Origin: Bacteroidota bacterium
GTDB taxonomy: Bacteria; Bacteroidota; Ignavibacteria; Kryptoniales; JAKASW01
Direction of reading: 5' to 3'
Length of the DNA: 44,141 nt
Assembly: GCA_021818875.1 (NCBI GenBank)
Contig: JAKASW010000003.1
Location: 1-44,141 of the forward strand
Under the pieces are notes generated by a model. The model saw only the letters and a program-made list of their open reading frames with translations, was not told the DNA's origin and did not search any database. A program made the position numbers and the translations under genes. Positions 4,198-42,584 of this stretch are shown piece after piece (within the stretch, counting starts at the first letter, position 1; the number at the start of each line of letters is the position of its first letter).

Positions 4198-4761
4198 TCA
4201 GCTCAGGTGTACCACGAAATGACAGGTCTTCCCGCCGCGCCTTAGAGTCTCGACGATTTCCGTCTTGAAAGGACGTCCCAGCGCTGTCTCGAAAATCGTT
4301 TGATGGGTCATCCGAGTGCACTCGCAGTGGATGTCGTTCGGTTTCGGCGGGATGTTTTGCGCCGCCGGACAGTAACAGAGCTTCGACACCTCTCCATACC
4401 TTATGTGAACCTCGTCGCCATCGCGCCACACTTCAAAGTTCTGCTTGTATGCATCGAGAAGCTTGGCGACATCGCCATGTCCCTTGGCAGCAATATCCTT
4501 CTTAAACTTGTGACGGTTGAAACACCCTACGCCGCATCCTTCAATCAGTTTTACTTTTGTCTCCTGGTTCAACCTCACGTCCATGGTATTTAGCAGATCT
4601 GTCAGCCAATTCACGATGAACTCCTTCTCGTTCTGCAGGCGCTCAAGTTTCTCATCCGTCGTAGTTGCGCTTGCTGCAAGGTTGTCGAGGTTGAGCGCCA
4701 GCAACGCACTTGAACAGAAACCGAGCTTTAGTGAAGTGCTGAGGAATTTCTTACGGTCCAT
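4198..4761 (-). CDS. Exported cysteine-rich protein of unknown function (last gene of the radical SAM/GMC operon)
   Basis: A 187-aa protein with an N-terminal export signal (MDRKKFLSTSLKLGF, then a hydrophobic stretch). DRKKFL resembles a twin-arginine motif with the second Arg replaced by Lys, so Tat export is possible but not certain. The mature part has seven cysteines in tight groups: CGVGC, CYC, CEC and a lone Cys in GGKTCHFVVHL at the extreme C-terminus. The arrangement suggests metal or Fe-S binding. From memory it resembles a family of Tat-exported hypothetical proteins ending in RGxxxCxFxxHL; no function is established that I know of. The C-terminal pattern recurs in the 180-aa protein at 6092-6634. 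It follows the GMC oxidoreductase gene by 41 bases and is probably its partner or a redox carrier (inference). Confidence 0.7.
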   Translation of the reverse strand: MDRKKFLSTSLKLGFCSSALLALNLDNLAASATTTDEKLERLQNEKEFIVNWLTDLLNTMDVRLNQETKVKLIEGCGVGCFNRHKFKKDIAAKGHGDVAKLLDAYKQNFEVWRDGDEVHIRYGEVSKLCYCPAAQNIPPKPNDIHCECTRMTHQTIFETALGRPFKTEIVETLRRGGKTCHFVVHLS

Positions 4762-4802
4762 ATAGTTCCTTCCTTATAGTTTTTATCAACTTTGTCGCTC
4801 GC

Positions 4803-6095
4803 TCAATCCGCAAACTTCTCTATGCAAAGCCTGCTTACTCTCTTGGCCAATGCCATGATGGTGAGTATCGGCGGATTGCCGAGTGAATTGGGAAATAGAG
4901 TAGAATCTGCCACGTACATGTTTTGCGGGAGAATGTTGCTATGACATGTCTCCGCCTCGCTCGCGGTGAGAGGCAGCATTCCCCCGGGGTGGCCTCCGTT
5001 TACGGTCCCGAGGAACGTCTCTTCTGGTTTGACTCCTACATGACGAAAGATTTCTTTGGACAATATGACTCCCTCATCAAGTCTTTGCCGGTCAAGATTA
5101 CTTAGCCCCTTTGTGATTCCTCCGACGGCAATTTCCCCGCAGCTTGAGTCCGCAAGCTTGATCATCAGGCTGTAGATGTCCGGGGAAGGATATTTCCATT
5201 TCTTATTGAAAAAGAAACTCAGCAGGTCGAAATAGGGAGATAGCATAAAATGTTCTCTCTGAACTATGAAGGGCATGGGCATTTCGATATCCTGGTGTGA
5301 GTTCTCCCATTTTGCTGCAACGCACAAGACAGGATCGACGAACAGCTTCGGTTGGCACTTAATACCCGAGTTCTGCAATATGACCGGAGTTCCCAATCCC
5401 CCGGCCGTAATTACCACAAGGTCGGCAGGATAAAACTCCGTCCGAAAACCGCGTCTGGCAACCACTCCCTGTATCACTCCATTTGCGATCACCGCGTGGT
5501 GCACCTTGTGATTCGATAGCAGGTGCGCGCCTTTGCTCACCGCTTGCACCAGGAACTTCCGGGTATCCCATTTGGCTGCATGCTGGCAACCGAACACACA
5601 CCTGCCGCAGGCCGCACACCGATCGCCGTAGGCCATCTTCGGGGTGATCATCGGCTGAAGCTGCATATCACGACAAAGATCGAAAATTTGTCGGGTGTGC
5701 CTGGACCAATGCTTCCGATGCTCAAATGAAATTGGGACTTCGCGATACAGCTCTTCGAATTCTTTGTCGAGATCGATTCCAATCGCTTTCAAGTCGTGGT
5801 CCTGTCTCAATCCGTTGCCCGTACAAATTGTGGTCGTTCCACCTGCTCCAGCGCCGCGCACCAGGACCAACCCCTCATGCGATTTCCTAACCTTCATGTT
5901 CGGGTAGATCAATCCGACCATGCGTTCATCAAAAAGGAGTCCCGTCCTCTTTAGTTTCCCGACCGATGAGAGTTGCATCGTAAAGGGATGGAAACCTCCT
6001 CCTTCTTCGATGACAGTAACATTGAATTTCCCCTGCAGCTCTTTTGCAGCCGTGGCACCGCCTGCTCCGGCCCCGACAACTATCGCTTGTTTCAT
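4803..6095 (-). CDS. GMC-like FAD-dependent oxidoreductase with a four-cysteine motif
   Basis: A 430-aa flavoprotein. The N-terminus is a Rossmann FAD site (IVVGAGAGGATAAKEL, then VIEEGG). A second FAD/GMC element is VRGAGAGGTTTICTGN. The C-terminal part has GTVNGGHPGGMLPLT and ADSTLFPNSLGNPPILTIMALA, the usual GMC ending with the active-site His in GGHPGG. Around residues 157-167 lies CAACGRCVFGC, a CxxCxxCxxxC pattern seen in a subset of GMC-like dehydrogenases and suggestive of an Fe-S cluster or structural metal. At 430 aa it is shorter than classical GMC oxidases (500-600). Such enzymes oxidise alcohols or related groups; the substrate is unknown. The ATG overlaps the upstream stop as ATGA, so translation is probably coupled. 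Confidence 0.82.
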   Translation of the reverse strand: MKQAIVVGAGAGGATAAKELQGKFNVTVIEEGGGFHPFTMQLSSVGKLKRTGLLFDERMVGLIYPNMKVRKSHEGLVLVRGAGAGGTTTICTGNGLRQDHDLKAIGIDLDKEFEELYREVPISFEHRKHWSRHTRQIFDLCRDMQLQPMITPKMAYGDRCAACGRCVFGCQHAAKWDTRKFLVQAVSKGAHLLSNHKVHHAVIANGVIQGVVARRGFRTEFYPADLVVITAGGLGTPVILQNSGIKCQPKLFVDPVLCVAAKWENSHQDIEMPMPFIVQREHFMLSPYFDLLSFFFNKKWKYPSPDIYSLMIKLADSSCGEIAVGGITKGLSNLDRQRLDEGVILSKEIFRHVGVKPEETFLGTVNGGHPGGMLPLTASEAETCHSNILPQNMYVADSTLFPNSLGNPPILTIMALAKRVSRLCIEKFAD

Positions 6096-6634
6096 GTATC
6101 AGCTTCGATTGCAAGATGTGCCCGGCAACACGGATCTCCCTCGGTTATCCTGTTAATAAACCTCAGGTTGCTGCTTCCCGATACCCCCGCCAGGAAACCT
6201 ACATCAAAAGCCGAGATCAACCGACAAACGTGAGACGAATAGAACCGGCTGAAGTAACATCTCCTTATCAGTATCTCTCCGGCTGCTGTACCATAGAACT
6301 CGATCCCAAGGATTCCGTAAACGATTTTGCTCAGCGTCATGGCATGCTTCATATTTTTAACTCCGAAATCTCTTCGTGCTTTGCGCCCGATCTCGCTAGC
6401 GTTCTCATAGAGCCGACGCGCTACTTCCGTTTCACTTCCTAACCGTATTGCTTCCTCTCCTTTTGCGGCGGTGAACGCAGCGTATTTACTCAGGATCCCA
6501 TCTGCGTTCAGCAAATCAATCGACGGTACCTGCACTCCGAAGGAAACCGCGGTCGCATTAAAGATTTCTCGCAGCACCTTCCTGCGGATGAACTGCGGGA
6601 CATAAATCCGTCCAACGTTGAAGAGGAGATTCAT
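6092..6634 (-). CDS. Uncharacterised 180-aa protein with a C-terminal GDPCCRAHL signature
   Basis: I do not recognise a named function. The protein has no signal peptide or clear membrane segment. Its second half holds CYFSRFYSSHVC, a glycine-rich stretch (VGFLAGVSGSS) and RITEGDPCCRAHL near the end. This order (CY..., spaced Cys, then a C-terminal basic-x-T/E-G-x-x-C-x-x-x-HL) matches the exported Cys-rich protein at 4198-4761. It is also reminiscent of the 4-vinyl-reductase-like / L-2-amino-thiazoline-4-carboxylate hydrolase fold group, where a late Cys is conserved; that assignment is tentative. ATGA overlaps at both ends link it to the 138-aa membrane protein upstream and the GMC oxidoreductase downstream, so the three products are probably made in fixed proportion. 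Confidence 0.65.
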   Translation of the reverse strand: MNLLFNVGRIYVPQFIRRKVLREIFNATAVSFGVQVPSIDLLNADGILSKYAAFTAAKGEEAIRLGSETEVARRLYENASEIGRKARRDFGVKNMKHAMTLSKIVYGILGIEFYGTAAGEILIRRCYFSRFYSSHVCRLISAFDVGFLAGVSGSSNLRFINRITEGDPCCRAHLAIEADT

Positions 6635-7047
6635 AGCAAGTGCCTCTTCATTCTGCGATAGAACAGAAGAACAACGACGCCAATAATTCCATCCACTAAG
6701 AAGTTGGTTAAGTAAATCAGATATCGGGCAGCGGCGATAAACAAAATTATAGAGACTACCGAGGAGGCGACTTTGGCATTAATCAGGAGCAATGGGAAAG
6801 TTGTGTTATGCGGATGGTGGTACATCATGAAAGCAAGTAGTGTAACGAGATACATGTAAGCCACGGAGAGAATGAGATAGAAGCGGGCGCCAGCAAGCGG
6901 GGCCTCTGGCATCTGGACTGAGCCGGACATCGAATTGAAGAAGATCAGGACTGCGTCCGGCGCGAGTAAGAAAAGAAGCACTACTATCGCAAAAACAAAG
7001 GACAGTATGAGGGCGGTCAACCTGTAAAGACCCAAACGTCCGTCCAT
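6631..7047 (-). CDS. Small four-helix inner-membrane protein
   Basis: A 138-aa protein with four predicted membrane segments (about residues 9-33, 52-76, 84-108 and 110-130) and a basic C-terminal tail (RRMKRHLL). No family is recognised and no catalytic motif is evident apart from a histidine pair region (MMYHHPHNTT) between helices 2 and 3, which could bind a metal or haem. It starts 2 bases after the stop of the radical SAM gene and overlaps the next gene by 4 bases (ATGA). It could anchor the soluble enzymes of the operon to the membrane or move a lipophilic intermediate; this is inference from position only. Confidence 0.7.
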   Translation of the reverse strand: MDGRLGLYRLTALILSFVFAIVVLLFLLAPDAVLIFFNSMSGSVQMPEAPLAGARFYLILSVAYMYLVTLLAFMMYHHPHNTTFPLLLINAKVASSVVSIILFIAAARYLIYLTNFLVDGIIGVVVLLFYRRMKRHLL

Positions 7048-7049
7048 TT

Positions 7050-8282
7050 CTAGGCAACCATCTTTTTCGGATTCACAGCACGACTGATTTGGTTCGTACC
7101 ATAATATAGCTGAAAGAAGACAGATAATTCGCCGAATCGGACCTCGTCCATAAGCTTGATCGATTCAGCTTTCGGCAGAATTTTCCTGCCCTCAGAGTAT
7201 TTTCTTAATAGTCCGTAATTGCAGTTGATAAAACAGTGCGAGCCCGGTTGAAAATGCGACCTGATCTCGCTGAAAATCTGTCCGATGCCTTCCTCCCTGA
7301 CATTACCGAAATTCATCGGAGTAAACACGCATGGGCTCACATCGCCGAACGCATCCACGTAAATCATCTTGCGACCGGCGTTGCAGCCAAAACACTCTCT
7401 TCCCTCGAAATGACCAAGATAGTTGACGGTCATTTTTCCATCGGAGTTGTATCTATTCTGGAGGTGTACCAATTTCTGCCGGTCCTCTTCCGTAATGACT
7501 ATTCTACGATTCCAGAACGGCTCTATGGTCGGCTTAAGCTCGCTCAGCCAGGCTTCATGGACTCCAAGAGCTGCGATGAACTCAAGGAGTCTGTCCGTAT
7601 CGTCGCTCCTTATCATCTCCGGTGTCAGCACCGCAGAGATTCCGACATCCATCCCGGCCGTGTTCCTGAACATTTCCACTGCCCCGATCGCTTCATCGAA
7701 AGCATTCTTGTAGCCCCTCTGTTTGTTATGAACCTCAGGGTTCCAATGATCCAGGCTGACAGAGACCGAGAATAAACCTGCGTCTTTCAAGGCCGCGGCT
7801 AATTGTGGTGTCAGGCCACAACCGGTCGTGAATAGTTTCACGGCGCAGCCATTCGAAATTGTAGATATTATTTCCACGATGTCTTTATTGAGAAGAGGCT
7901 CGCCTCCGGTGACTCCGAGCCAGACCACACCCATATCCTTTAGTTCTCCCGCAACCCGAAGAATTGTTTCCTTGTTCATTAACCTGCCGGTCCTATCCTT
8001 ATTATAGCAGTATTCGCAATTTTGGGGACAGGCGTTAGTGATGGCAATCTGCGCATGAGAAGGACCCGACACTCTTTTGATCAAATGTTCTTCAACAAAC
8101 TTTGAGTATGCACGACTATTCAGCGGCGGAAGGTGAGAGTGGAGAATCAGATTTTGCCCGACTTTCCGCACACGAAACCTGTTCATATAGGAACACATGA
8201 ATTTCGTGATCGAAGGTTCGACAAAGGCCATCCGCGGATTCCGTAACAGCACCTTTAGCATCGTGGAGATATTTCTCATCAT
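7050..8282 (-). CDS. Radical SAM enzyme with SPASM-like C-terminal domain
   Basis: A 410-aa enzyme. The radical SAM cluster motif CPQNCEYC (about C85, C89, C92) is the canonical CxxxCxxC, followed by the GGEPL motif (GVTGGEPLL). The C-terminal third has further cysteines in ECFGCNAGRK, GDVSPCVF and GSHCFINCN, with MNFGNVREE between them, which fits a SPASM/twitch auxiliary-cluster domain. Such enzymes modify peptides, proteins or small molecules. The N-terminal ~75 residues before the barrel are basic and partly amphipathic. The start is ATG 8282: its A is the last base of the TonB-receptor stop (TGATG), with GGAG five bases upstream; a TTG three bases earlier is less likely. The substrate is unknown. 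No RiPP precursor gene or recognition (RRE) domain is obvious nearby. Confidence 0.88.
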   Translation of the reverse strand: MMRNISTMLKVLLRNPRMAFVEPSITKFMCSYMNRFRVRKVGQNLILHSHLPPLNSRAYSKFVEEHLIKRVSGPSHAQIAITNACPQNCEYCYNKDRTGRLMNKETILRVAGELKDMGVVWLGVTGGEPLLNKDIVEIISTISNGCAVKLFTTGCGLTPQLAAALKDAGLFSVSVSLDHWNPEVHNKQRGYKNAFDEAIGAVEMFRNTAGMDVGISAVLTPEMIRSDDTDRLLEFIAALGVHEAWLSELKPTIEPFWNRRIVITEEDRQKLVHLQNRYNSDGKMTVNYLGHFEGRECFGCNAGRKMIYVDAFGDVSPCVFTPMNFGNVREEGIGQIFSEIRSHFQPGSHCFINCNYGLLRKYSEGRKILPKAESIKLMDEVRFGELSVFFQLYYGTNQISRAVNPKKMVA

Positions 8283-10771
8283 CAAAACTCCGCCTCGATT
8301 CCGGCGACTGGAAGCAGGGCAAACTGGTACACTGTCTCTCTCGTACCATCAGAGTTGTATTGATAGAAGGCAACGTTCTTCCGGTTGTAGATGTTTTGCA
8401 CCGACAACAGGATCACAAGGCTCCAGGCGCGGAAATTGTACCTGCTTGAGAACTCTATGTCAAGCCGGTGATAATCAGGATATCTCGCAGAATTGATGTT
8501 CGACGTCGTTTGCCACGAGCCTGCCGTCCAGGTGGATCCGCCGACCCGGTGTTGCACGTTCGTGGAGTAAACTTCCGGAGTGTAAGGCATGCCGGTTGCG
8601 TATCGCCATCTCAAACTGATCCCCATGTCATTCGAGAAAGGTAGTATATGGCTCGGATACTTTATGTAGAAGGGCATATCGTCAAGGCTGGAACGCAAAT
8701 TGGCGAACCGTTTTCCCGCGATCACGGTGAGCACGTAAGGCGTATCGTACCAGGATGGAAAAGTCCTTCCTTCCCACCCGATTCGCGGGTCGTAGTATTT
8801 AGAGAACATCCTGGAGAGACATATCGTCCCATAAAGATCTTTTACAAGTTTTTGCTGTACGAGAAAGTCAATCCCGTATACATCCTCTCTACCGGCGTTG
8901 ACAATTTGTGCTGACCTCGCGGTTTGATCGCTGAAGAGAATAAAGTTCTCTGAGATTGGAAGGCCGGAGTACTGTTTGTAGTAGCCTTCAATATTGATCT
9001 TCAATCCTTCAACGACAATATCCTCAACTCCAAGGACATAATGGTCCGCTACGCTGCTCGATAGATGCCTGTTGATCCCGGATTGGTATCTGTCCCCGAA
9101 ATCGGGGAGAGGAGGAGTCTGATAGTATTTCCCGAAAGCCATATTTGCTGTCAGGACATTAGGGACGATCGAATAGGAAGCAGATAATCGCGGGCTCAGG
9201 TTTCCTTTTCTGCTGTAAGAAAAGTAGTCATACCTGAGTCCGAGATTGAATACGAGCCGCCCGTCAAAGAGACTTACCTTATCGTTGACGTACGCATAGC
9301 CTTTGTAATAATCGGGAAAACCAAAGTCATAGTTGATGTTCGAAGCAGGTACAACTACTGTAGTATCGTATTCACCAAAATTATACCGAGTGGTGTCGGT
9401 ATCAGCTGATTCGAACGCCTTGAAGTTTATGAATTTCACAGCACCGCCAAGATCACACTGATTTATTCTGTCCACATTCCACATGAATTCAGACTTCAAA
9501 TCGGTTTCTCCCTCATTGTCATCCGCACCGTATATTTTTCTGGTGTTAAGGACGTTCGTGGAGCTTACCTTCCCGTCTCCGCCATAGATCCTCTGTGTGA
9601 ATTCTGAATTGACCAGGACGTTACTGTAATAATTGTTCTTCGAAAGCGTAACAACAGAAACGAGGTCGTCGGACCACCTGCTGTTCAGTGTTGCACCTGC
9701 CGCATACTGGTGCTGCCTGACGCTGACGTTGTAGACATCCACCAAATCGGACTTACCCGCAAGGGCGAGGTTGGTAACCTGTGGCTCGCCCGCAATGTTG
9801 ATTCTGTCGTTGCCGTATATTCCTGAGAGAGAAAACTTGTGATTCTCGGAGAGATCGTATACGGCTTTCCCCTGGAGATCATAGTATTTCGGAACTGCGG
9901 TGAGCCCGACCGCACCTGCAATCATGTCGATGTAACTGTTCCTTGCCGAGATAATCCACGATCCCTTCCCACCGTTCAGCCTGCCTTCCAGCACAGAGCC
10001 ATAGCCTGCCATCGACAGGTTTGCATTCCCGGACAGAAGTTTATCTCGCGTTCCATCTCTTGTCCTAATGTTTATGACCGACGATGACTTGTCGCCATAC
10101 TTGGAAATGAAACCGCCTGTCGAGAACTGCACATCCTGGATCAGATCGACATTCACTATGTTTATCGGGCCACCGGAATTATACTGGTTCGGATAGTGGT
10201 TTGTCGACTGGACTTCCATGTGATCGAGAGTTGTCAGGTTCTCATCCGGTGCCCCACCCCTCACCAGAAGTTCGTTCGTTTGATCAGTTGAGAAAGAGAC
10301 ACCCGGCATTCCTTGAAGTACTCGCTGATAGTCCATGTCGGATCCCGGAGATCTCCTGATCTCCTCCGATCCGAGGGCCACGGTACTTACAAAGTTCTCG
10401 ATCGAAGCTCTCTCGAAATAGTCCGGACTCACGGTCACCTGGTCAAGCTGCAGTGGCATCTCAGTCATCTTCACATTCACCGGGGTCTCGCTACCGGTTC
10501 TTACGATGATGTCTGTCTTCACAACGGGCTGATAACCGACCATGCTGATCCTGAGAGAGTAGCTCCCGACGGGTACAACTACTTTGAACCGCCCGTTGAA
10601 ATCGGTCATCGTCCCGGTATTCTTTAGCTCAACAACAACTGCGGTTGCCCCCACAAGCGGCTCCCCCATTTTCGAATCTGCGACTGATCCAGTGATCGTA
10701 CCGGTCTGTGAATATGCTTCCGAAAATAGAAGAGACAGCACTGCCAATGATCGTGCAATATTGCTCAGCAT
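8282..10771 (-). CDS. TonB-dependent outer-membrane receptor (first gene of the radical SAM/GMC operon)
   Basis: An 829-aa receptor with a signal peptide (residues 1-21, cleavage after AYS). A carboxypeptidase-regulatory-like beta-sandwich follows at ~25-105 (GTITGSVADSKMGEPLVGA), then a plug domain ~115-235 (RVLQGMPGVSFSTDQTNELLVRGG is the core region) and a 22-strand-type beta-barrel to the C-terminal Phe. It imports a ligand too large or scarce for porins using TonB energy. No TonB box is evident by eye, and substrate cannot be inferred. It leads a six-gene operon with a radical SAM enzyme, an unusual place for such a receptor: either it supplies the substrate or cofactor for those enzymes or it recovers their product. 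No strong Shine-Dalgarno precedes the start, as is common in Bacteroidota-like genomes. Confidence 0.9.
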   Translation of the reverse strand: MLSNIARSLAVLSLLFSEAYSQTGTITGSVADSKMGEPLVGATAVVVELKNTGTMTDFNGRFKVVVPVGSYSLRISMVGYQPVVKTDIIVRTGSETPVNVKMTEMPLQLDQVTVSPDYFERASIENFVSTVALGSEEIRRSPGSDMDYQRVLQGMPGVSFSTDQTNELLVRGGAPDENLTTLDHMEVQSTNHYPNQYNSGGPINIVNVDLIQDVQFSTGGFISKYGDKSSSVINIRTRDGTRDKLLSGNANLSMAGYGSVLEGRLNGGKGSWIISARNSYIDMIAGAVGLTAVPKYYDLQGKAVYDLSENHKFSLSGIYGNDRINIAGEPQVTNLALAGKSDLVDVYNVSVRQHQYAAGATLNSRWSDDLVSVVTLSKNNYYSNVLVNSEFTQRIYGGDGKVSSTNVLNTRKIYGADDNEGETDLKSEFMWNVDRINQCDLGGAVKFINFKAFESADTDTTRYNFGEYDTTVVVPASNINYDFGFPDYYKGYAYVNDKVSLFDGRLVFNLGLRYDYFSYSRKGNLSPRLSASYSIVPNVLTANMAFGKYYQTPPLPDFGDRYQSGINRHLSSSVADHYVLGVEDIVVEGLKINIEGYYKQYSGLPISENFILFSDQTARSAQIVNAGREDVYGIDFLVQQKLVKDLYGTICLSRMFSKYYDPRIGWEGRTFPSWYDTPYVLTVIAGKRFANLRSSLDDMPFYIKYPSHILPFSNDMGISLRWRYATGMPYTPEVYSTNVQHRVGGSTWTAGSWQTTSNINSARYPDYHRLDIEFSSRYNFRAWSLVILLSVQNIYNRKNVAFYQYNSDGTRETVYQFALLPVAGIEAEF

Positions 10772-20500: not shown

Positions 20501-21583
20501 CTATGGTCGCCGTGAAGCTGCTGGTTGCTCGTGTGTCAGGCAATGTATCGTCCCTAACCCCCAGACAAGATCGAGTGCATGTATCCCGATGACCGGGCGA
20601 TCTGTAACGAGCTCGGCAATGAGCCCGAGTGCTGTCCTGTCATTTGGATCGTCGAAAGTTGGAACGAGGACGGCCGCATTAGAAAAATAAAAGTTCGCAT
20701 AACTCGCAGGAAGTCTTTGACCTTTGAAGAGGACCGGTTCAGGCATCGGGATGAAAGCGACATCCGGCTTCGTTCCGTCCGCCAGCGTGAAGTCGCGAAT
20801 CCTCTCTTTGTTCTCGCAGAGGGGTTTGTAGTTATCGTCGCGCTGATTTCTCTCTTCGACCAGGACCAGTGTCTTTTCATTCACGAACCTGCATAGATCA
20901 TCGACATGTCCGTGCGTGTCGTCCCCGGCAATTCCTTTCCCGAGCCAAAGGACATTGTCAATGCCAATGTAATCGTGAAAGGCCTTTTCATAGTCGTTCC
21001 TTGAAAATCCAGGATTGCGTGTCTGAACCGCCTCATTAAGGAGACATTCTTCTGTGGTTATGAGTGTTCCATTTCCATTGTGGTCGACGGACCCGCCCTC
21101 AAGAATTATCGGTCTGTCATTGTGCGTTGCCCAAAATGTTCGAATGCCGAGTTTTTTCGAGATGAAACCGGGAATTTTTCTATCTTTCTTGTAATCCGGA
21201 TATTTCGCCCACCCGTTGAAGCCGAAATTCACCTGGGCGATTCCACTCGCATTCTTGATGAACTGCGGCCCGGAATCTCGCGTCCATCCTCTGTCCGTTT
21301 CAAAAACAAAGAACTCAACGTCGTTTGTATCGACGTTCGCCGATCTTAGAACTGTTCGTGCATGTCGCTCGTGTTCTCCGGACTCAACAAATATCCGTGT
21401 CTTCTCCCCCGCTGATATTCTCCTCACTATCTCAGCATACACCCACGGTACAGGCGTGAATCTGCCGGGCCAGTCACTCCTGTTATGGGGCCAGCCGAGC
21501 CAGGTAGCTTCGTGATTCTCCCATTCGGCGGGAAGGCGGTAACCGAGCTCCGACGGAAGTTTTTCTAAAATTTGTGATTTCAT
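20501..21583 (-). CDS. aguA: Agmatine deiminase
   Basis: A 360-aa enzyme of the peptidyl-arginine deiminase family. It converts agmatine to N-carbamoylputrescine and ammonia. Family landmarks are EATWLGWPHNRSDW near the N-terminus, GWTRDSGPQF, ILEGGSVDHNG, GDDTHGHVDDLCRF (catalytic His/Asp) and the nucleophile Cys in WGLGTIHCLTHEQPA (about residue 348). Length matches the family. The amidase for its product is encoded 121 bases upstream on the same strand, giving a complete two-step route to putrescine. An arginine decarboxylase to make agmatine is not in the window. Confidence 0.94.
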   Translation of the reverse strand: MKSQILEKLPSELGYRLPAEWENHEATWLGWPHNRSDWPGRFTPVPWVYAEIVRRISAGEKTRIFVESGEHERHARTVLRSANVDTNDVEFFVFETDRGWTRDSGPQFIKNASGIAQVNFGFNGWAKYPDYKKDRKIPGFISKKLGIRTFWATHNDRPIILEGGSVDHNGNGTLITTEECLLNEAVQTRNPGFSRNDYEKAFHDYIGIDNVLWLGKGIAGDDTHGHVDDLCRFVNEKTLVLVEERNQRDDNYKPLCENKERIRDFTLADGTKPDVAFIPMPEPVLFKGQRLPASYANFYFSNAAVLVPTFDDPNDRTALGLIAELVTDRPVIGIHALDLVWGLGTIHCLTHEQPAASRRP

Positions 21584-21704
21584 TCGTTCTTATTGAGGCA
21601 GGCCGGAGAAAAGAGGCAGTAGACAAGATGAACGCTATGACAAGTGAGGCACGGTATTGAGTTACAAGATTCTGTTTCCTTCCTCCTGTCTCCTGTCTCC
21701 TTCA

Positions 21705-22616
21705 TTAGTGCTGGCTCTTTTTGCCTGGGCCAATAAATCTCTCCCCGATCCCGTCATACGCATCTACCCGCCTGTCTCGAAGGAACGGCCAATTCTGACG
21801 GATGTACTCGATTCGACTGAGGTCAACTTCTGCCATTAGAGCTTCTTCTTTGTCAGATGATGCCTGTGCCATGATCTTCCCTTGCGGGTCAGCGATGAAG
21901 GAGTTTCCCCAGAATTCGATTCCTGCCGACGTCTCATTCACTTTCTCAAGTCCAACTCTATTCGCAGCGGCGACATAGACACCGTTTGCAATTGCATGTC
22001 CGCGCTGCACCGTCAGCCATGACTCGAATTGCGCATTTCCGTGTTCGGCTTTTTCATGCGGGTGCCAACCTATTGCAGTGGGATAGAAAAGCACGCTCGC
22101 CCCCTTGAGAGCGGTAAGCCGAGCGGCCTCCGGGTACCACTGGTCCCAACATATGAGCGCTCCGACATCTCCGTATTTGACCCGATACGAATCGAACCCG
22201 AGATCGCCGGGGGTAAAATAAAACTTTTCATAGAAGGCGGGATCATCTGGGATGTGCATCTTTCGGTAAATCCCGGCGATCGTTCCGTCTGCGTCGATGA
22301 TCGCTGCCGTGTTGTGATAGACGCCCGGTGCGCGTTTTTCGAATACCGGTACGATCACCGCTACCGCAAGCTTCCTGGCCAACTTTGAGAGCGCTTCTGT
22401 TGAGGGTCCGGGAATTGTCTCTGCCAATTCGAATTTCCTGATATCCTCGGTCTGACAAAAATATTGTGACCTGAATAATTCAGGCAAGCAGATGATCTTT
22501 GCACCTTCGCGAGCTGCCTTTTGAATGAACGAAATAGCATGCTTGAGGTTAAGGTTCGGATTCTTTTCCATAGCCATCTGGACGAGACCTACTGCAAACT
22601 TGTCTCCAGTGGGCAT
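21705..22616 (-). CDS. aguB: N-carbamoylputrescine amidase
   Basis: A 303-aa nitrilase-superfamily enzyme. The Glu-Lys-Cys triad is visible in ICLPELFRSQYF (Glu), GIYRKMHIPDD (Lys) and ALICWDQWYPEAAR (Cys), with FYFTPGD and EFWGNSFI typical of plant and bacterial AguB. It cleaves N-carbamoylputrescine to putrescine, CO2 and ammonia. The longest frame begins 20 codons earlier, but ATG 22616 is preferred: it has an AGAGGG Shine-Dalgarno and gives the family N-terminus FAVGLVQMAM close to the start. It precedes agmatine deiminase in transcription order and follows a carbonic anhydrase gene by 133 bases. Confidence 0.94.
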   Translation of the reverse strand: MPTGDKFAVGLVQMAMEKNPNLNLKHAISFIQKAAREGAKIICLPELFRSQYFCQTEDIRKFELAETIPGPSTEALSKLARKLAVAVIVPVFEKRAPGVYHNTAAIIDADGTIAGIYRKMHIPDDPAFYEKFYFTPGDLGFDSYRVKYGDVGALICWDQWYPEAARLTALKGASVLFYPTAIGWHPHEKAEHGNAQFESWLTVQRGHAIANGVYVAAANRVGLEKVNETSAGIEFWGNSFIADPQGKIMAQASSDKEEALMAEVDLSRIEYIRQNWPFLRDRRVDAYDGIGERFIGPGKKSQH

Positions 22617-22749
22617 TGTTTTCCCTCTTTGTCTCATCTCACCTTGCTGACGATCCTGCGATGGGCATCCCCGCAAATTTCATTTCCACTTTTACTCTAA
22701 TATTCTCTTTCTGACTTCGTAAGATAGCACACCGGGCAGAATTGCTCAA

Positions 22750-23379
22750 TCAAATTCTCCTCCTTATCGCCGCCGACTCCGCTTTGTTTGTCACAGTGAC
22801 ATCGAGGTCCTTGATCAATCCGTCGGAAATATCATATATCCAACCATGGACATTCAACTGCTGCCCCATCCCCCAGGCGTTCTGGACGATCCCCGTCTGG
22901 CACACGTTCCACACCTGTTCCATGACATTCAGCTCACAAAGCAAATTATATCTTGCAGGTTCGCCGCTGAGAGCCTCCAACACGACCTGATGATTCCTGT
23001 ACACATCCCTTATGTACTGGAGCCAATTGTCAATCATGCCGTACCCCTTCCTTTCCACTGCGGCCATGACGCCGCCGCAGCCATAGTGCCCGCAGACAAT
23101 TATATGTCTTACCTTCAGGACTTCTACCGCAAACTGGATTACCGAGAGACAATTCAGATCGGAATGGACCACTAAATTCGCAATATTCCTATGGACAAAA
23201 ATCTCACCCGGCAGCAAGTCTACAATTTCAGTAGCCGGGACGCGGCTGTCGGAACATCCGATCCATAAGTATTCCGGTGCCTGCTGCTGAGACAGGCGAA
23301 GAAAAAAATCCGGATCCCTTTCCTTCATCGCCGCTGCCCACGTTCTGTTCCTATCAAACAAGTCGCTCAATGTTCTCAT
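22750..23379 (-). CDS. can: Beta-class carbonic anhydrase
   Basis: A 209-aa cytoplasmic zinc enzyme interconverting CO2 and bicarbonate. Zinc ligands C42, H98 and C101 lie in WIGCSDSRVP and VCGHYGCGG, with the Asp44/Arg46 dyad next to C42; the spacing and residue numbers equal those of E. coli Can as I remember them. The HRNIANLV motif is also present. The gene lies 22 bases after the PLP-decarboxylase stop and before the two agmatine-pathway genes. As the decarboxylase and the N-carbamoylputrescine amidase both release CO2, co-expression may keep that CO2 as bicarbonate (inference). Confidence 0.95.
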   Translation of the reverse strand: MRTLSDLFDRNRTWAAAMKERDPDFFLRLSQQQAPEYLWIGCSDSRVPATEIVDLLPGEIFVHRNIANLVVHSDLNCLSVIQFAVEVLKVRHIIVCGHYGCGGVMAAVERKGYGMIDNWLQYIRDVYRNHQVVLEALSGEPARYNLLCELNVMEQVWNVCQTGIVQNAWGMGQQLNVHGWIYDISDGLIKDLDVTVTNKAESAAIRRRI

Positions 23380-23401
23380 TGAATCTCCTGCTAAACCATT
23401 G

Positions 23402-24889
23402 CTACGTCTTAACTTCCTTACTCAGTGCTCTGTCAGCTGCCCGACCGAGCACCTTCCAGATTTCCTCGAGCCAGTCAAGATGCTCCGGTTTCATAAGAAC
23501 AGAGCGAAGGCAAGTAATAGTTTCTGAATTCTTCGTCATACCTGAAGGCTCCGTTTCGAAGAAGGCTGCGGGCAGCTCAACGAGAGCAAGATGCAGATTG
23601 TCTTTCGCTGCCTCATCAAATATCTTTCGCGCATATTCCGAAGATCGAGTGACACTCTCTGATACAGGTGCCCAGATAACAATATCGAGTTCCGGCTGGA
23701 ACGGAGTTATAAATCTCCCATCCGCCTTCAATTTCCTGTGTAGTTCAAGTGCAGCTGTACGACATTTCTCTAACGAGGTTGCAAACTCACCATGATGAAC
23801 AAGCGGAAGAAATCTCTGCGTTGCCCACAAAGCTACTGCCGAAGCACCTGGACGCGAACACTCAAGGCTTATTTCTCCAAGATGCAATCCGACCGGAGAG
23901 GATTCTCCTTCCGAAGATTCATCGCCAGTAAAATAAGTGTATGGCGAATCGTGTTTGTAGAACCTTGCTACCGAAGGGTCGCGAAAGATTACACAACCAC
24001 ACCCGTAAGGTTGAAGGCCATGTTTGTGAGGATCCACAACAATCGAATCGACTTCTGAAATTCGATCGTACGCCTTGCGAGTCTGTTCATCAAGATTACC
24101 AGCGAGAATGAAGTACCCACCATACGCAGCGTCCGCGTGCAACCGAAAGCCGTACTCTCGCTGCAACCCGACGATCTCATCCAGGGGGTCGACCGCACCG
24201 GCCGCTGTTGTCCCAATCGTCGCGACGACGGTTCCGACTTCATAATAGTCGAGATATTTCTTCAGCGCTTCGACATCCATTCGCCCGTTTCTATCGCAGG
24301 CGACGGGCTCGAATTCTAAGCCCAGGACCGCAGTGATCCTTGAATGAGTGTAATGTGCCTGTTGGGAAGCAACAACTTTTTTCCCGGGGTTCAGCTGCCC
24401 TGCAACCCAGAGCGCTTCAAGGTTCGCCATGGTGCCGCCGCCTGTGAGGTGACCAAGATGCTTTTTCCATCCGAACATTCGAGCGATCTCAGCAACTGCC
24501 TCTTTCTCCATATTCGAACTAGCGCGGCCGCCGTCCAACGCATGATTGTTTGGATTGATCCACATGGAAAGCATGTAGGCAATCCTCGCAATTGGATGCG
24601 GCGGCTTGAGCATCTGTCCGGCATAAAACGGATGAAAGTATGGATAGTTGTCTTTCATCCGCTCTGCAGCTTCAAGGATCACTCTCTCGAAAGTCTTCTG
24701 GTCTTCAACAGAAGGGTTATTGGACGGCAGCATGGAATAGCCTTTTTCCATCTCGCCGAGCGCAGTCCGGAGAATTTGAAGAGTGCTTTTTTCAAAAATG
24801 CCAGGCTGTTCCATCTTCCTAGTTGAACGACGGGGCATTTGGCGTGTACCATATTTCTTTTTTCTAATACTCATCTGATGCTTTGTCAA
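23402..24889 (-). CDS. PLP-dependent group II amino acid decarboxylase
   Basis: About 495 aa. The fold-type I PLP site is clear: TGGGTMANLEALWVA (phosphate loop), HADAAYGGYF (Asp contacting the pyridine nitrogen) and VDPHKHGLQPYGCG (Schiff-base Lys). These place it with the glutamate / aromatic amino acid / diaminobutyrate decarboxylases. Substrate cannot be fixed by eye. The start is uncertain: TTG 24889 has a GGAGG Shine-Dalgarno at 24899-24895 with 5-base spacing and is chosen; GTG 24913 and ATG 24874 or 24814 are alternatives. The first ~40 residues are basic and poorly conserved-looking. It heads the run decarboxylase, carbonic anhydrase, N-carbamoylputrescine amidase, agmatine deiminase. 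It is not a recognisable arginine decarboxylase, so it does not simply feed that pathway. Confidence 0.85.
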   Translation of the reverse strand: MTKHQMSIRKKKYGTRQMPRRSTRKMEQPGIFEKSTLQILRTALGEMEKGYSMLPSNNPSVEDQKTFERVILEAAERMKDNYPYFHPFYAGQMLKPPHPIARIAYMLSMWINPNNHALDGGRASSNMEKEAVAEIARMFGWKKHLGHLTGGGTMANLEALWVAGQLNPGKKVVASQQAHYTHSRITAVLGLEFEPVACDRNGRMDVEALKKYLDYYEVGTVVATIGTTAAGAVDPLDEIVGLQREYGFRLHADAAYGGYFILAGNLDEQTRKAYDRISEVDSIVVDPHKHGLQPYGCGCVIFRDPSVARFYKHDSPYTYFTGDESSEGESSPVGLHLGEISLECSRPGASAVALWATQRFLPLVHHGEFATSLEKCRTAALELHRKLKADGRFITPFQPELDIVIWAPVSESVTRSSEYARKIFDEAAKDNLHLALVELPAAFFETEPSGMTKNSETITCLRSVLMKPEHLDWLEEIWKVLGRAADRALSKEVKT

Positions 24890-25567
24890 CGGGTCCTCCG
24901 AAACAGAAAACACTGAAAAAGTGGCTGCAATTCTTGACAGAAATTTACGAATTACAAGCTACTGAATCTAATGTCCGACAGTCGCGCGTGGTCTGGTTGT
25001 AAGGGCTCAGTTGCCGACTCCGGCGAAAACCAAGGCTTTGGAATTCATCGTGGATTCCGGCGCAGGTGTAAAAGAATGAACATAAGGCCGATTGTCAAAA
25101 AAGAATCCGTTTGGCCGACGGCGGCAGGATAACCCGTAGAAAAGGGTCTGTTCTTTTCAGGTACCTGGAGAAAAGGGAAGGGTCCGATGTCATATTCGGC
25201 GAACAGGATGACGCCACTCGCCTTGGTTCTCTGACACTCGAATCTTCGGGTCTCGCACCTGATCCTACTCGTCGTGGACCGAAACCTTCGCCGTTAATAC
25301 TTTTCTCTATTCAGACTCAATAGGCAAAAAGGCGCCGCCAGCTTTGAACTGTGGCTTGGATGGTTTGGTTTTGTGGAGGCCATACGTGTTAAAGCGACGC
25401 CTTTCCCCGCGGACGCGGGCTCCCGTACACCTTGCTCTCACTGAGATGAGCGGGATCGATCCCCTATCTGTTCTAAGATAACCAGCCATCTTTAAGCTAA
25501 GGTAAACTTATCTTTAAGGTGATTATAAATCTTCCAGCGAAAAGGATGGCCAGGACGGAGCCCCCGG
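24890..25567. other. 678-bp interval without a convincing gene; structured RNA candidate
   Basis: The only open frames are short (25111-25323 + and 25307-25489 -), lack Shine-Dalgarno sequences and have arginine-rich, low-quality translations. The interval carries the promoter of the decarboxylase operon on one side and the end of the HflX/135-aa transcript on the other. Between 25326 and 25500 it is rich in pairing: a terminator-like long stem, a GC hairpin CCCGC-GGAC-GCGGG (25406-25419) and a 12-bp palindrome GGGATCGATCCC (25452-25463) inside a longer imperfect stem with AGAT/ATCT ends. I could not match it to tRNA, tmRNA, 6S, RNase P or SRP RNA. Read on the minus strand it could be an independent small RNA or a structured 3' UTR. 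Confidence 0.4.
25326..25402 (-). terminator. Intrinsic terminator on the minus strand with a long loop
   Basis: On the minus strand AGGCGTCGC (25402-25394) pairs with GCGGCGCCT (25338-25330), nine pairs including one G-U. It is followed at once by a T-run (25330-25326). The loop is 55 bases and could itself be structured. Probably ends transcription of the HflX operon or of a small RNA. Weakly symmetrical, so it may also act on the plus strand. Confidence 0.5.
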
Positions 25568-40071: not shown

Positions 40072-41271
40072 TCATTTTACTTCTGTGTCGCCGGCTTGAA
40101 CGACATCAGGAGTCTTGCCGGACTTCACGCCGAAGAATCTGACATAAAGGTAGAGGTTTGCGGCCATTATTATGCCGTAGATAAAGAACGGGAGTTCAAA
40201 CAGCGCACCTTCCATGAGATAGCCGCTGAGGCCGGTGCCCGTTGAGGACGCCGCAAGCCTCGCCACCTGATTTATCCCCAACGCTCTTCCCATTTCGTCA
40301 TCGTCTACACGTTTCGTCAGTTCCGACTGCTGGATCGGAAGTGCCGCTACTCTCAACGCCGGTCCTATGATATAAATGAATACGGAGAGCGGCAAAAGTC
40401 TTATGACGGGGAAGACAACAAACAGAACCGTTCCAAGCCCTCTTGTGAATACTATGCTCTTCACAAAACCGAAATACCTTTCAAGAAGAGGAGCGCCGAG
40501 TATTGCGAAGGATCCTAAAAGACCACTCGCAAAGGCGTATTCGGACATTTGCGACTTTGGAAGATGGTACACCAATACAAAGAAAGGTATCAGGAACGGC
40601 ACGATAAGCCCCTGGGAAAGGCCGTTCAGCATCCCCGTCAATGTGAATTTTCCTATTGTAGTTCTTGTCCTCAGTTTGCCGATTTTTCCGCGAGCCTCTT
40701 CAACCTTAAGATACCAGAGCCCGGGCATACCAACCGCGGAAATGACGGCGGCAGCGAGGAAGATATCCCGAACGTCAAATACCTTCGCCAGAAGAGCACC
40801 CAGTGCGCCGGTAACTCCGGACAGAAACGTAAAGAAAGAAAAATATTTGGTCCTCGTTTCGTCCGCGGTCAAGTTTGCAAGTACCGCGCTCTGTATTGGC
40901 TGCACTGCCCCGCCTATTCCCCCACCGGCAAGAGAGCCGGTTGCCGAATAGCCGCCGAGCATTGCCGCTGGAATTATCATCCAGAGATTCGATGACGTAT
41001 AAACCATAATGGCGCTGAGCGGCAAGAGTGCGCTTGTGATGATCAACGTCCCGCGCTTTCCCCAGACATCGGTCGTTATCCCGGCCAGGAAACCGAGAAT
41101 AGCAGTTGCAACAGTTGCCGAGACATATATAAGCCCGATTGTGAACGCACCATGATGCAGCGTTGTGAGTATGTAATATGGGAATGCAATGTTGATCATC
41201 CCCGCGGCAACGCTTCTTGCAACGCGTGAAAAGCCAACTAATGTTATATCTCTATTCACTGAGTAATTCAC
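40072..41271 (-). CDS. MFS transporter (copy 1 of a tandem pair)
   Basis: A 399-aa transporter with about twelve membrane helices. MFS motif A between helices 2 and 3 is GITTDVWGKRGTL. It is closely similar over its whole length to the protein at 41388-42584: shared blocks include NGLSQG, PFLIPFFVLVYH, INQVARLAASS and the YLYV tail. The pair therefore arose by tandem duplication. It is the last gene of a run that begins with the tyrosine phenol-lyase. Substrate unknown; import of aromatic amino acids or export of their breakdown products fits the context. The stop codon abuts that of the convergent bacilliredoxin gene with no spacer. Confidence 0.88.
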   Translation of the reverse strand: MNYSVNRDITLVGFSRVARSVAAGMINIAFPYYILTTLHHGAFTIGLIYVSATVATAILGFLAGITTDVWGKRGTLIITSALLPLSAIMVYTSSNLWMIIPAAMLGGYSATGSLAGGGIGGAVQPIQSAVLANLTADETRTKYFSFFTFLSGVTGALGALLAKVFDVRDIFLAAAVISAVGMPGLWYLKVEEARGKIGKLRTRTTIGKFTLTGMLNGLSQGLIVPFLIPFFVLVYHLPKSQMSEYAFASGLLGSFAILGAPLLERYFGFVKSIVFTRGLGTVLFVVFPVIRLLPLSVFIYIIGPALRVAALPIQQSELTKRVDDDEMGRALGINQVARLAASSTGTGLSGYLMEGALFELPFFIYGIIMAANLYLYVRFFGVKSGKTPDVVQAGDTEVK

Positions 41272-41362
41272 TGAGGTTGATTATAGTCCGGAACCAGGAT
41301 CTACCGGGATGAAGTCTCACAATATTCTTCAGTTGTTCATATAGACGAACATCCCTCTTCAG

Positions 41363-41387
41363 CTTCCGAGGCTATATCGGTCGGAAG
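41363..41387 (-). repeat. Hairpin immediately after the stop of MFS copy 2
   Basis: CTTCCGA (41363-41369) and TCGGAAG (41381-41387) form a perfect 7-bp stem with an 11-base loop directly behind the stop codon at 41388. There is no T-run. It could slow decay or partly terminate transcription between the two MFS genes. Confidence 0.4.
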
Positions 41388-42584
41388 TTACGAGACGGAG
41401 GTTATACGCGATTTTTTCGTCCCAAATAATTTAACATAAAGATACAGATTTCCCATCATCAGAATTCCGTAGGCAAGAAAAGGTACTTCATAAAGCGCGT
41501 TTTCCATCAGGTAGCCGCTCAGACCAATACCTGCCGACGAAGCCGCAAGTCTGGCAACCTGGTTTATGCTGAGCGCTCTTCCGAGGTCATCGCTGCGTAC
41601 TCGCTTAGTGAACTCCGATCTCTGAATCGGTGCAGCCATAACTCGCAACGACGGAGCAAGGATGTAAATCGCAATGGCTGCGGGCAGCCAATTTACGGCG
41701 GGCATAAGGGTGAGCAGCACTAATCCGACACCTCTTGTTACCACCACGCTCCTGACAAATCCCAACTTTCTCTCGATCAGCGGCGCTCCAAGAATTGCCA
41801 CCGAGCTGAGCGCTCTTGCCGTGAAGGCATATACGGCCATTTGTGAAATCGGGACATGGTACACGAGCACGAAAAATGGAATCAGGAAAGGAATGACGAT
41901 GCCTTGTGAAAGACCGTTAAGCGATCCGGTCAATGCGAATTTTCCAATGATCGCCTTCGTTTTAAGCCTCACAATCTTCTTCCTTTCGTTCGAAACATGA
42001 AGACACCACAAGCCAGGAAGAGTAAGCAACGAAAGGATCGAAGCAGCGAGAAAGACATCGCGGACGGTCAAGATCTCAGCAAGGAGAGCGCCAAGCGCGG
42101 TTGCTAATCCTGATATGAACGAGAACACTGAGAAGAATTTCGTTCTGTGCTCCTCCAGCGTAAGCTCAGCAAGTACCGCATTCTGGACTGGTTGAACCGC
42201 CCCGTTGACCCCGCCGCCGAGCGAGCCTGTCGCCGAGAAACCGCCCACCATCGCCGCTGCCATGGTCCACCAGAAATCCCGCGACACATAAACGATAACT
42301 GCGCTTACCGGAAGGAGCATACTTACCAGGACGAGAGTGTTGCGCCTTCCCCACGAGTCAGCGACGAAACCGCTTGCGAAACCGATAACCGCCGTCGCTA
42401 TTCTCGCACAGAGAAAAATCACTCCCAGGTTGAGTGCCCCGCAGTGAAGAGTCCTGAGGAGATAATAGGGAAGCGCGACGCCGATCATACCGCCGGAGAT
42501 GCTGCGACCTATCCTTGCCACCGTCAGGAAAACAATGTCGAGATCCCCCCGCCTCGTGAAACGGCTACGCAGGACGATATTCAT
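41388..42584 (-). CDS. MFS transporter (copy 2 of a tandem pair)
   Basis: A 398-aa twelve-helix MFS protein, paralogous to 40072-41271 end to end. Motif A is GFVADSWGRRNTL, and the same internal blocks (NGLSQG, PFLIPFFVLVYH, INQVARLAASS) are present. It is preceded by the tyrosine phenol-lyase gene (48-base gap holding a GC hairpin) and followed by its paralogue after 116 bases. Differences are concentrated in loops and at the N-terminus, compatible with divergence of substrate range. No classical Shine-Dalgarno precedes the ATG. Confidence 0.88.
   Translation of the reverse strand: MNIVLRSRFTRRGDLDIVFLTVARIGRSISGGMIGVALPYYLLRTLHCGALNLGVIFLCARIATAVIGFASGFVADSWGRRNTLVLVSMLLPVSAVIVYVSRDFWWTMAAAMVGGFSATGSLGGGVNGAVQPVQNAVLAELTLEEHRTKFFSVFSFISGLATALGALLAEILTVRDVFLAASILSLLTLPGLWCLHVSNERKKIVRLKTKAIIGKFALTGSLNGLSQGIVIPFLIPFFVLVYHVPISQMAVYAFTARALSSVAILGAPLIERKLGFVRSVVVTRGVGLVLLTLMPAVNWLPAAIAIYILAPSLRVMAAPIQRSEFTKRVRSDDLGRALSINQVARLAASSAGIGLSGYLMENALYEVPFLAYGILMMGNLYLYVKLFGTKKSRITSVS

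Follow-up and report, generated by a model that had tools for sequence, protein, structure and literature searches.

A recurrent gene quartet encoding a radical SAM enzyme and a GMC-type flavoprotein, with an inner gene pair that appears to exchange partners

The locus and the conserved gene quartet

In the window (the whole stretch of 44,141 nucleotides that was analysed), six open reading frames on the minus strand follow each other closely (Table 1), and the first-pass annotation, which listed these frames and their junctions, described them accurately. The stop codon of the TonB-dependent receptor gene overlaps the start of the radical SAM gene (TGATG at 8282), the latter is separated by 2 bases from the gene for the 138-aa protein, ATGA overlaps join the 138-aa gene to the 180-aa gene (6631-6634) and the 180-aa gene to the GMC gene (6092-6095), and a 41-base spacer precedes the gene for the 187-aa protein. 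A scan for promoters and terminators gave little above shuffled sequence and was uninformative.

Table 1. Genes of the operon in the window, with the evidence for each assignment
Feature	Position	Strand	Evidence
TonB-dependent receptor	8282..10771	-	CarbopepD_reg_2 + Plug (Pfam)
Radical SAM/SPASM enzyme, 410 aa from the ATG overlapping the TonB stop	7050..8282	-	Radical_SAM + SPASM (Pfam)
138-aa predicted membrane protein	6631..7047	-	AlphaFold2 helices; no Pfam match
180-aa protein with predicted V4R/TRAPPC3 fold, remote ATC_hydrolase relative	6092..6634	-	AlphaFold2 + Foldseek; no Pfam match
GMC-type flavoprotein, 430 aa, C-x2-C-x2-C-x3-C motif	4803..6095	-	GMC_oxred_N (Pfam)
Exported Cys-rich protein, 187 aa	4198..4761	-	weak, sub-threshold DUF6144 match (Pfam)

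The same annotation treated the six genes as one unit. This holds for four of them, the order and tight spacing of which are kept across many phyla, but not for the TonB gene, which is adjacent to the others only in the genus of the window, or for the 187-aa gene, which lies beside the module in no sister genome. Accordingly, when the co-occurrence check that had been proposed was run, the radical SAM, 138-aa, 180-aa and GMC genes were found together in at least six phyla, and the set of six as such was not conserved. Judging from gene order, these four genes appear to constitute the conserved functional unit, and their recurrence, with order and tight spacing held across many phyla, is more than chance. 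The quartet is present in the same order in Kryptoniota, KSB1, Calditrichota, Aminicenantes, Acidobacteria, Spirochaetes and Firmicutes.

The contigs of GTDB genomes were scanned with the GMC family, and the analysis was performed on 80 loci, the best 80 of 173 GMC relatives; most of these are metagenome bins, and the counts include near-duplicates, with five loci coming from sister genomes of the window and many from similar Lachnospiraceae. In 35 of these best 80 of 173 loci, the radical SAM and/or 138-aa genes lie ahead of the 180-aa and GMC genes; the hosts are Kryptoniota/Bacteroidota bins, KSB1, Calditrichota, Aminicenantes, Acidobacteria, a Chrysiogenota bin, Spirochaetes and Firmicutes. 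A reverse search from the radical SAM family, with true orthologues defined as those scoring >500 bits, identified such orthologues in 9 of 82 KSB1 genomes, 4 of 299 genomes of the Firmicutes phylum and 3 of 149 Aminicenantes genomes, and the regions around them again contain the module. At three loci (L141, L148 and L149), a longer overlapping reading frame masks one or two module members in a simple gene call, and the L141 and L148 contigs, represented also by L063 and L065, show all members under the latter labels. Two more distant radical SAM relatives (about 215-234 bits) are located elsewhere, outside the module. A 234-bit relative is found inside a Firmicutes type II polyketide-like cluster (L146:9359-19000) that also encodes two ketosynthase-like proteins along with SRPBCC-like, SDR, methyltransferase-like and cyclase-like proteins.

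Within the genus of the window, the GMC gene is present in 8 of 13 genomes, and the order of the four genes is kept in these, with the exception of G002, where an apparent deletion has fused the 5' portion of the radical SAM gene with the 180-aa gene. The join is in frame (L022:10401-11807, minus strand), the 138-aa gene is missing, and the junction falls within a short stretch (VDAFG/ADAFG, about GAyGCnTTCGG) that is common to both genes in the relatives; either a real deletion or an assembly collapse could have produced it.

The TonB gene adjoins the module in G000, G002, G009, G010 and G012, encoding proteins with 64-65% identity to that of the window. Decay at this site is reciprocal within the genus: in G007, the module is intact and the TonB gene is cut down to a short remnant (L021, about 7410-7655), and in G006, the TonB gene is kept (L159, 7961-10640) and the module is lost except for a radical SAM fragment of 45 residues. 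The position of this remnant behind the TonB gene rules out the possibility that the G006 site never held the module. In G005, the TonB orthologue (76%) occupies a different site from the module. Because the TonB gene is a remnant in G007, apart from the module in G005 and alone in G006, the two are separable, and the receptor gene is a co-directional neighbour that has been observed next to the quartet in this genus alone. In the other phyla, where several of the hosts are Gram-positive, the neighbour families around the module yielded no TonB gene (F13). Near the TonB site, several sister genomes share synteny with a polyamine-type cluster of the window (20501-24913), with genes resembling agmatine deiminase, carbon-nitrogen hydrolase, carbonic anhydrase and PLP decarboxylase. 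Farther along the window (40072-42584), two similar adjacent major-facilitator transporter genes (399 and 398 aa) apparently represent a tandem duplication.

The exported Cys-rich protein is probably not a module member: no homologue was found beside the module in the seven sister loci, and its relatives in the sister genomes show only 25-31% identity and are sited elsewhere. Its DUF6144 match, at 18.3 bits, falls below the Pfam gathering threshold of 28.8, and no relation to the 180-aa protein was detectable. A DUF3795-type Cys-rich protein is encoded upstream of the operon site in four sister genomes (L018:15043-15504, L019:15000-15461 and the same site in L021 and L023); it was not seen at the corresponding place in the window.

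An inner gene pair with two partner sets

The 180-aa gene directly precedes the GMC gene in 77 of the 80 loci (the best 80 of 173). Of the three loci that lack it, two stop immediately upstream of the GMC gene, and the third runs on into sequence of an unrelated kind. The only GMC locus among the best 80 of 173 with upstream room but no 180-aa gene is L071:1-1042, and the sequence upstream of it resembles a broken site-specific recombinase gene. In L087, the two genes form a single reading frame (residues 239-418 and 428-853), a single example that is possibly a sequencing error; an attempt to obtain a joint fold of the two proteins from the L087 protein was dropped, given that the aligner laid the two unrelated parts onto each other. 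By its near-invariant arrangement, the 180-aa/GMC pair is the constant inner core.

This pair is accompanied by either of two partner sets that are mutually exclusive, with set 1 in 35, set 2 in 40 and both in 0 of the best 80 of 173 loci. Set 1 consists of the radical SAM enzyme and the 138-aa membrane protein. Set 2 consists of a PS_pyruv_trans-like protein and a fusion of NAD_binding_4, AMP-binding and AMP-binding_C_3 domains (acyl-ligase/reductase), and in the set-2 loci (40 of 80), neither a radical SAM gene nor a 138-aa gene adjoins the pair. The set-2 hosts are mostly Lachnospiraceae and other Clostridia, and also include Chloroflexi, Atribacterota and single Spirochaetes and Betaproteobacteria bins. 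The set-2 fusion was not found in the 22 genomes of the first type that were searched, where only separate ligase-like and reductase-like matches were detected. The 138-aa protein was found only in genomes with the module, with a single copy in each, and the genomes of the second type yielded none. A phytoene-desaturase-like neighbour (F21) was rejected as a feature common to the KSB1-type loci and Formimonas, the L049 protein looking unlike the two KSB1-type ones.

In the maximum-likelihood tree of the GMC proteins, the supported branches force at least 4 changes of partner set. Two loci with set-2 partners in a different gene order (L050 and L052) are lodged inside a fully supported set-1 clade of Firmicutes and Calditrichota; they share 73-78% identity in GMC and 56-65% in the 180-aa protein with this clade, compared to 54-62% and 32-42%, respectively, with the other set-2 loci. 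These relationships show that the two core genes move together and have exchanged their partners again and again, which is the strongest new result of this analysis.

Predicted properties of the module proteins

The radical SAM protein shows matches to Radical_SAM (5e-24) and SPASM (2e-7), both above the Pfam cut-off, and belongs to the radical SAM/SPASM superfamily, having both the cluster motif and C-terminal auxiliary cysteines. The cysteines of the CxxxCxxC motif (C86, C90 and C93) are invariant in 31 of 31 sequences, and the auxiliary cysteines C301, C319 and C351 are present in 31, 30 and 30 of the 31, respectively. Because only three auxiliary cysteines are well conserved, a twitch-like auxiliary site is possible. 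The nearest solved relatives are SkfB, the best match, and MoaA.

The 138-aa protein is confidently predicted to be a helical membrane protein, with an AlphaFold2 model (pLDDT 92.3) of four long helices and one short helix (residues 3-28, 30-43, 54-77, 83-105 and 110-137). A profile search revealed no relatives in Pfam or the PDB, and a fold search with the model gave nothing significant; K92, N115 and D119 are invariant in 35 sequences.

For the 180-aa protein, the AlphaFold2 model (pLDDT 94.0) retrieved matches throughout from the V4R/Bet3-TRAPPC3/PoxR-MopR superfamily in Foldseek, namely, PoxR/MopR, Bet3/TRAPPC3 and the MJ1460 V4R protein, with a probability of 1.00 but at a remote level (best E 2.8e-3, TM-score about 0.5); the sequence profile found no match among PDB sequences. 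Homologues vary widely, with 27-47% identity to the window protein, and C126, C137 and C170 are invariant (72 of 72).

The GMC protein contains the FAD-binding GMC_oxred_N fold (PF00732, 1.2e-14) and the active-site histidine, which identify it as a member of the GMC oxidoreductase superfamily; its nearest PDB entry is cholesterol oxidase 1coy, with which the C-terminal active-site stretch aligns. Among the best 80 of 173 relatives, H369 is present in 80 and N407 in 72, and the four cysteines C160, C163, C166 and C170, with ferredoxin-like spacing, are invariant. A Fe-S cluster is predicted from this spacing.

Possible function of the module and comparison with known systems

The domains of the set-2 fusion are of the carboxylic acid activation and reduction type, and pyruvyl-transferase-like enzymes have been proposed to act on hydroxyls of lipid chains (PMC13291983). 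V4R domains, in turn, are thought to bind hydrophobic ligands (PMC2253512). We read the module best, with confidence somewhat short of an even chance, as a two-component oxidoreductase that would act on a lipophilic alcohol or aldehyde in a small-molecule pathway, with the partner sets preparing or modifying the molecule. The V4R-like subunit would hold the lipophilic substrate near the cytoplasmic membrane and hand it to the GMC subunit, the FAD of which, with His369 and usually Asn407, would oxidise an alcohol group or catalyse the reverse reaction. The four-cysteine site, probably a Fe-S cluster, would relay electrons to an acceptor other than oxygen. The two partner sets could be alternative routes by which one kind of lipophilic molecule is made or altered, set 1 by radical chemistry at the membrane and set 2 by acid activation and reduction along with hydroxyl modification. 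The product would be a small molecule or a lipid rather than a peptide, and, because the set-2 partners are an acyl ligase/reductase and a pyruvyl-transferase-like enzyme, analogy favours a lipid-type molecule.

Partner exchange could also mean that the core pair serves as a general oxidoreductase that two unrelated pathways have each taken up, and that the products of the two partner sets differ. The two sets have no recognised homologous protein in common, and the wide variation of the 180-aa protein would allow for different substrates, but swaps between closely related cores, as in the case of L050 and L052, and the complete lack of loci with both sets agree somewhat better with one set taking over the role of the other; we consider this explanation unlikely. 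A quite improbable alternative is that the radical SAM/SPASM enzyme is a peptide maturase, mycofactocin-like or of another RiPP type, with the precursor encoded elsewhere and the GMC protein acting as the dehydrogenase of a peptide-derived cofactor. SPASM proteins are often peptide maturases, as is SkfB, and there are weak matches to the mycofactocin models. These scores, however, are far below the curated cut-offs, 71.4 bits against 265 for the MftC model (TIGR03962) and 22.7 against 387 and 41.2 against 400 for the MftG-type models (TIGR03970 and TIGR04542, respectively), and MftA (TIGR03969) is missing from 21 of the 22 module genomes, that of the window among them, and lies about 1.7 Mb from the module in the remaining one, Formimonas; mycofactocin itself was thus rejected. 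Next to the radical SAM gene, the overlaps allow no space for a precursor peptide, and the gaps of the module at the locus contain no recurrent or evident peptide frame. Moreover, half of the loci have the core pair but no radical SAM gene, so the pair is not tied to a peptide made by that enzyme. The profile scores, the MftA search and the operon layout thus bear out the first-pass annotation in its view of a tightly coupled radical SAM/GMC pathway that lacks a precursor peptide and is not mycofactocin.

The further suggestion of that annotation, uptake across the outer membrane with a periplasmic Cys-rich partner, fared differently. Under such a six-gene system, the TonB receptor would import the substrate and the exported Cys-rich protein would act in the periplasm; the translational coupling of the TonB gene to the radical SAM gene and its conservation at this position in five genomes of the genus speak for it. 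Yet the TonB gene and the module have been lost independently of each other or sit apart, the module was recovered without an adjacent receptor gene in other phyla, where several hosts are Gram-positive, and the Cys-rich gene is unlinked in the sister genomes. With neither gene conserved along with the quartet, the six-gene system was rejected, and we regard uptake-coupled modification as very improbable.

Returning to the two-component oxidoreductase, a more specific and somewhat unlikely version holds that the V4R-like/GMC pair is a new Fe-S flavoenzyme catalysing the step common to two convergent routes, one radical and the other acid-reducing, to an undescribed lipid or lipophilic cofactor of sediment and animal-gut anaerobes. 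That such a gene set spans many phyla, and that its one enzyme pair is flanked by either of two partner modules but never by both, points to an as yet unnamed metabolite or lipid, and the second form of the module is present in gut Firmicutes; the pattern of partner swaps predicts that both forms act on the same molecule. A literature search that covered open papers, with most of the subscription literature outside it, found no description of either operon, in line with the earlier statement that no described system with this set is known, and the quartet is apparently undescribed.

Several known systems resemble parts of the module. Mycofactocin (MftA-F with MftG; PMC11778925) likewise combines a radical SAM/SPASM enzyme and a GMC flavoprotein in one operon, but the module lacks MftA and has the V4R-like and membrane proteins instead. 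Cholesterol oxidase and the long-chain alcohol branch of the GMC enzymes share with the module protein the FAD fold and the active-site His, usually with Asn, whereas the module protein is shorter (about 430 aa), contains the four invariant ferredoxin-like cysteines and comes with an obligate small partner gene. Carboxylic acid reductases and NRPS-like A-R proteins, like the set-2 fusion, join AMP-binding and NAD_binding_4 domains, but in the fusion the order is reversed, with the reductase first, and no carrier-protein domain was found by Pfam. The C-terminal part of the 180-aa homologues is covered by a match to ATC_hydrolase (PF14196), but the scores (19.2 and 18.6 bits) are below the gathering threshold of 28.1 and nothing points to thiazoline hydrolysis by this protein. 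Finally, the predicted fold of the 180-aa protein resembles that of V4R, TRAPPC3/Bet3 and PoxR/MopR, yet the similarity is remote and the known relatives are sensors or trafficking subunits, whereas the 180-aa protein is paired with a flavoenzyme, suggesting an unusual role, as a flavoenzyme subunit, for a hydrophobic-ligand fold that is shared with the eukaryotic TRAPP complex.
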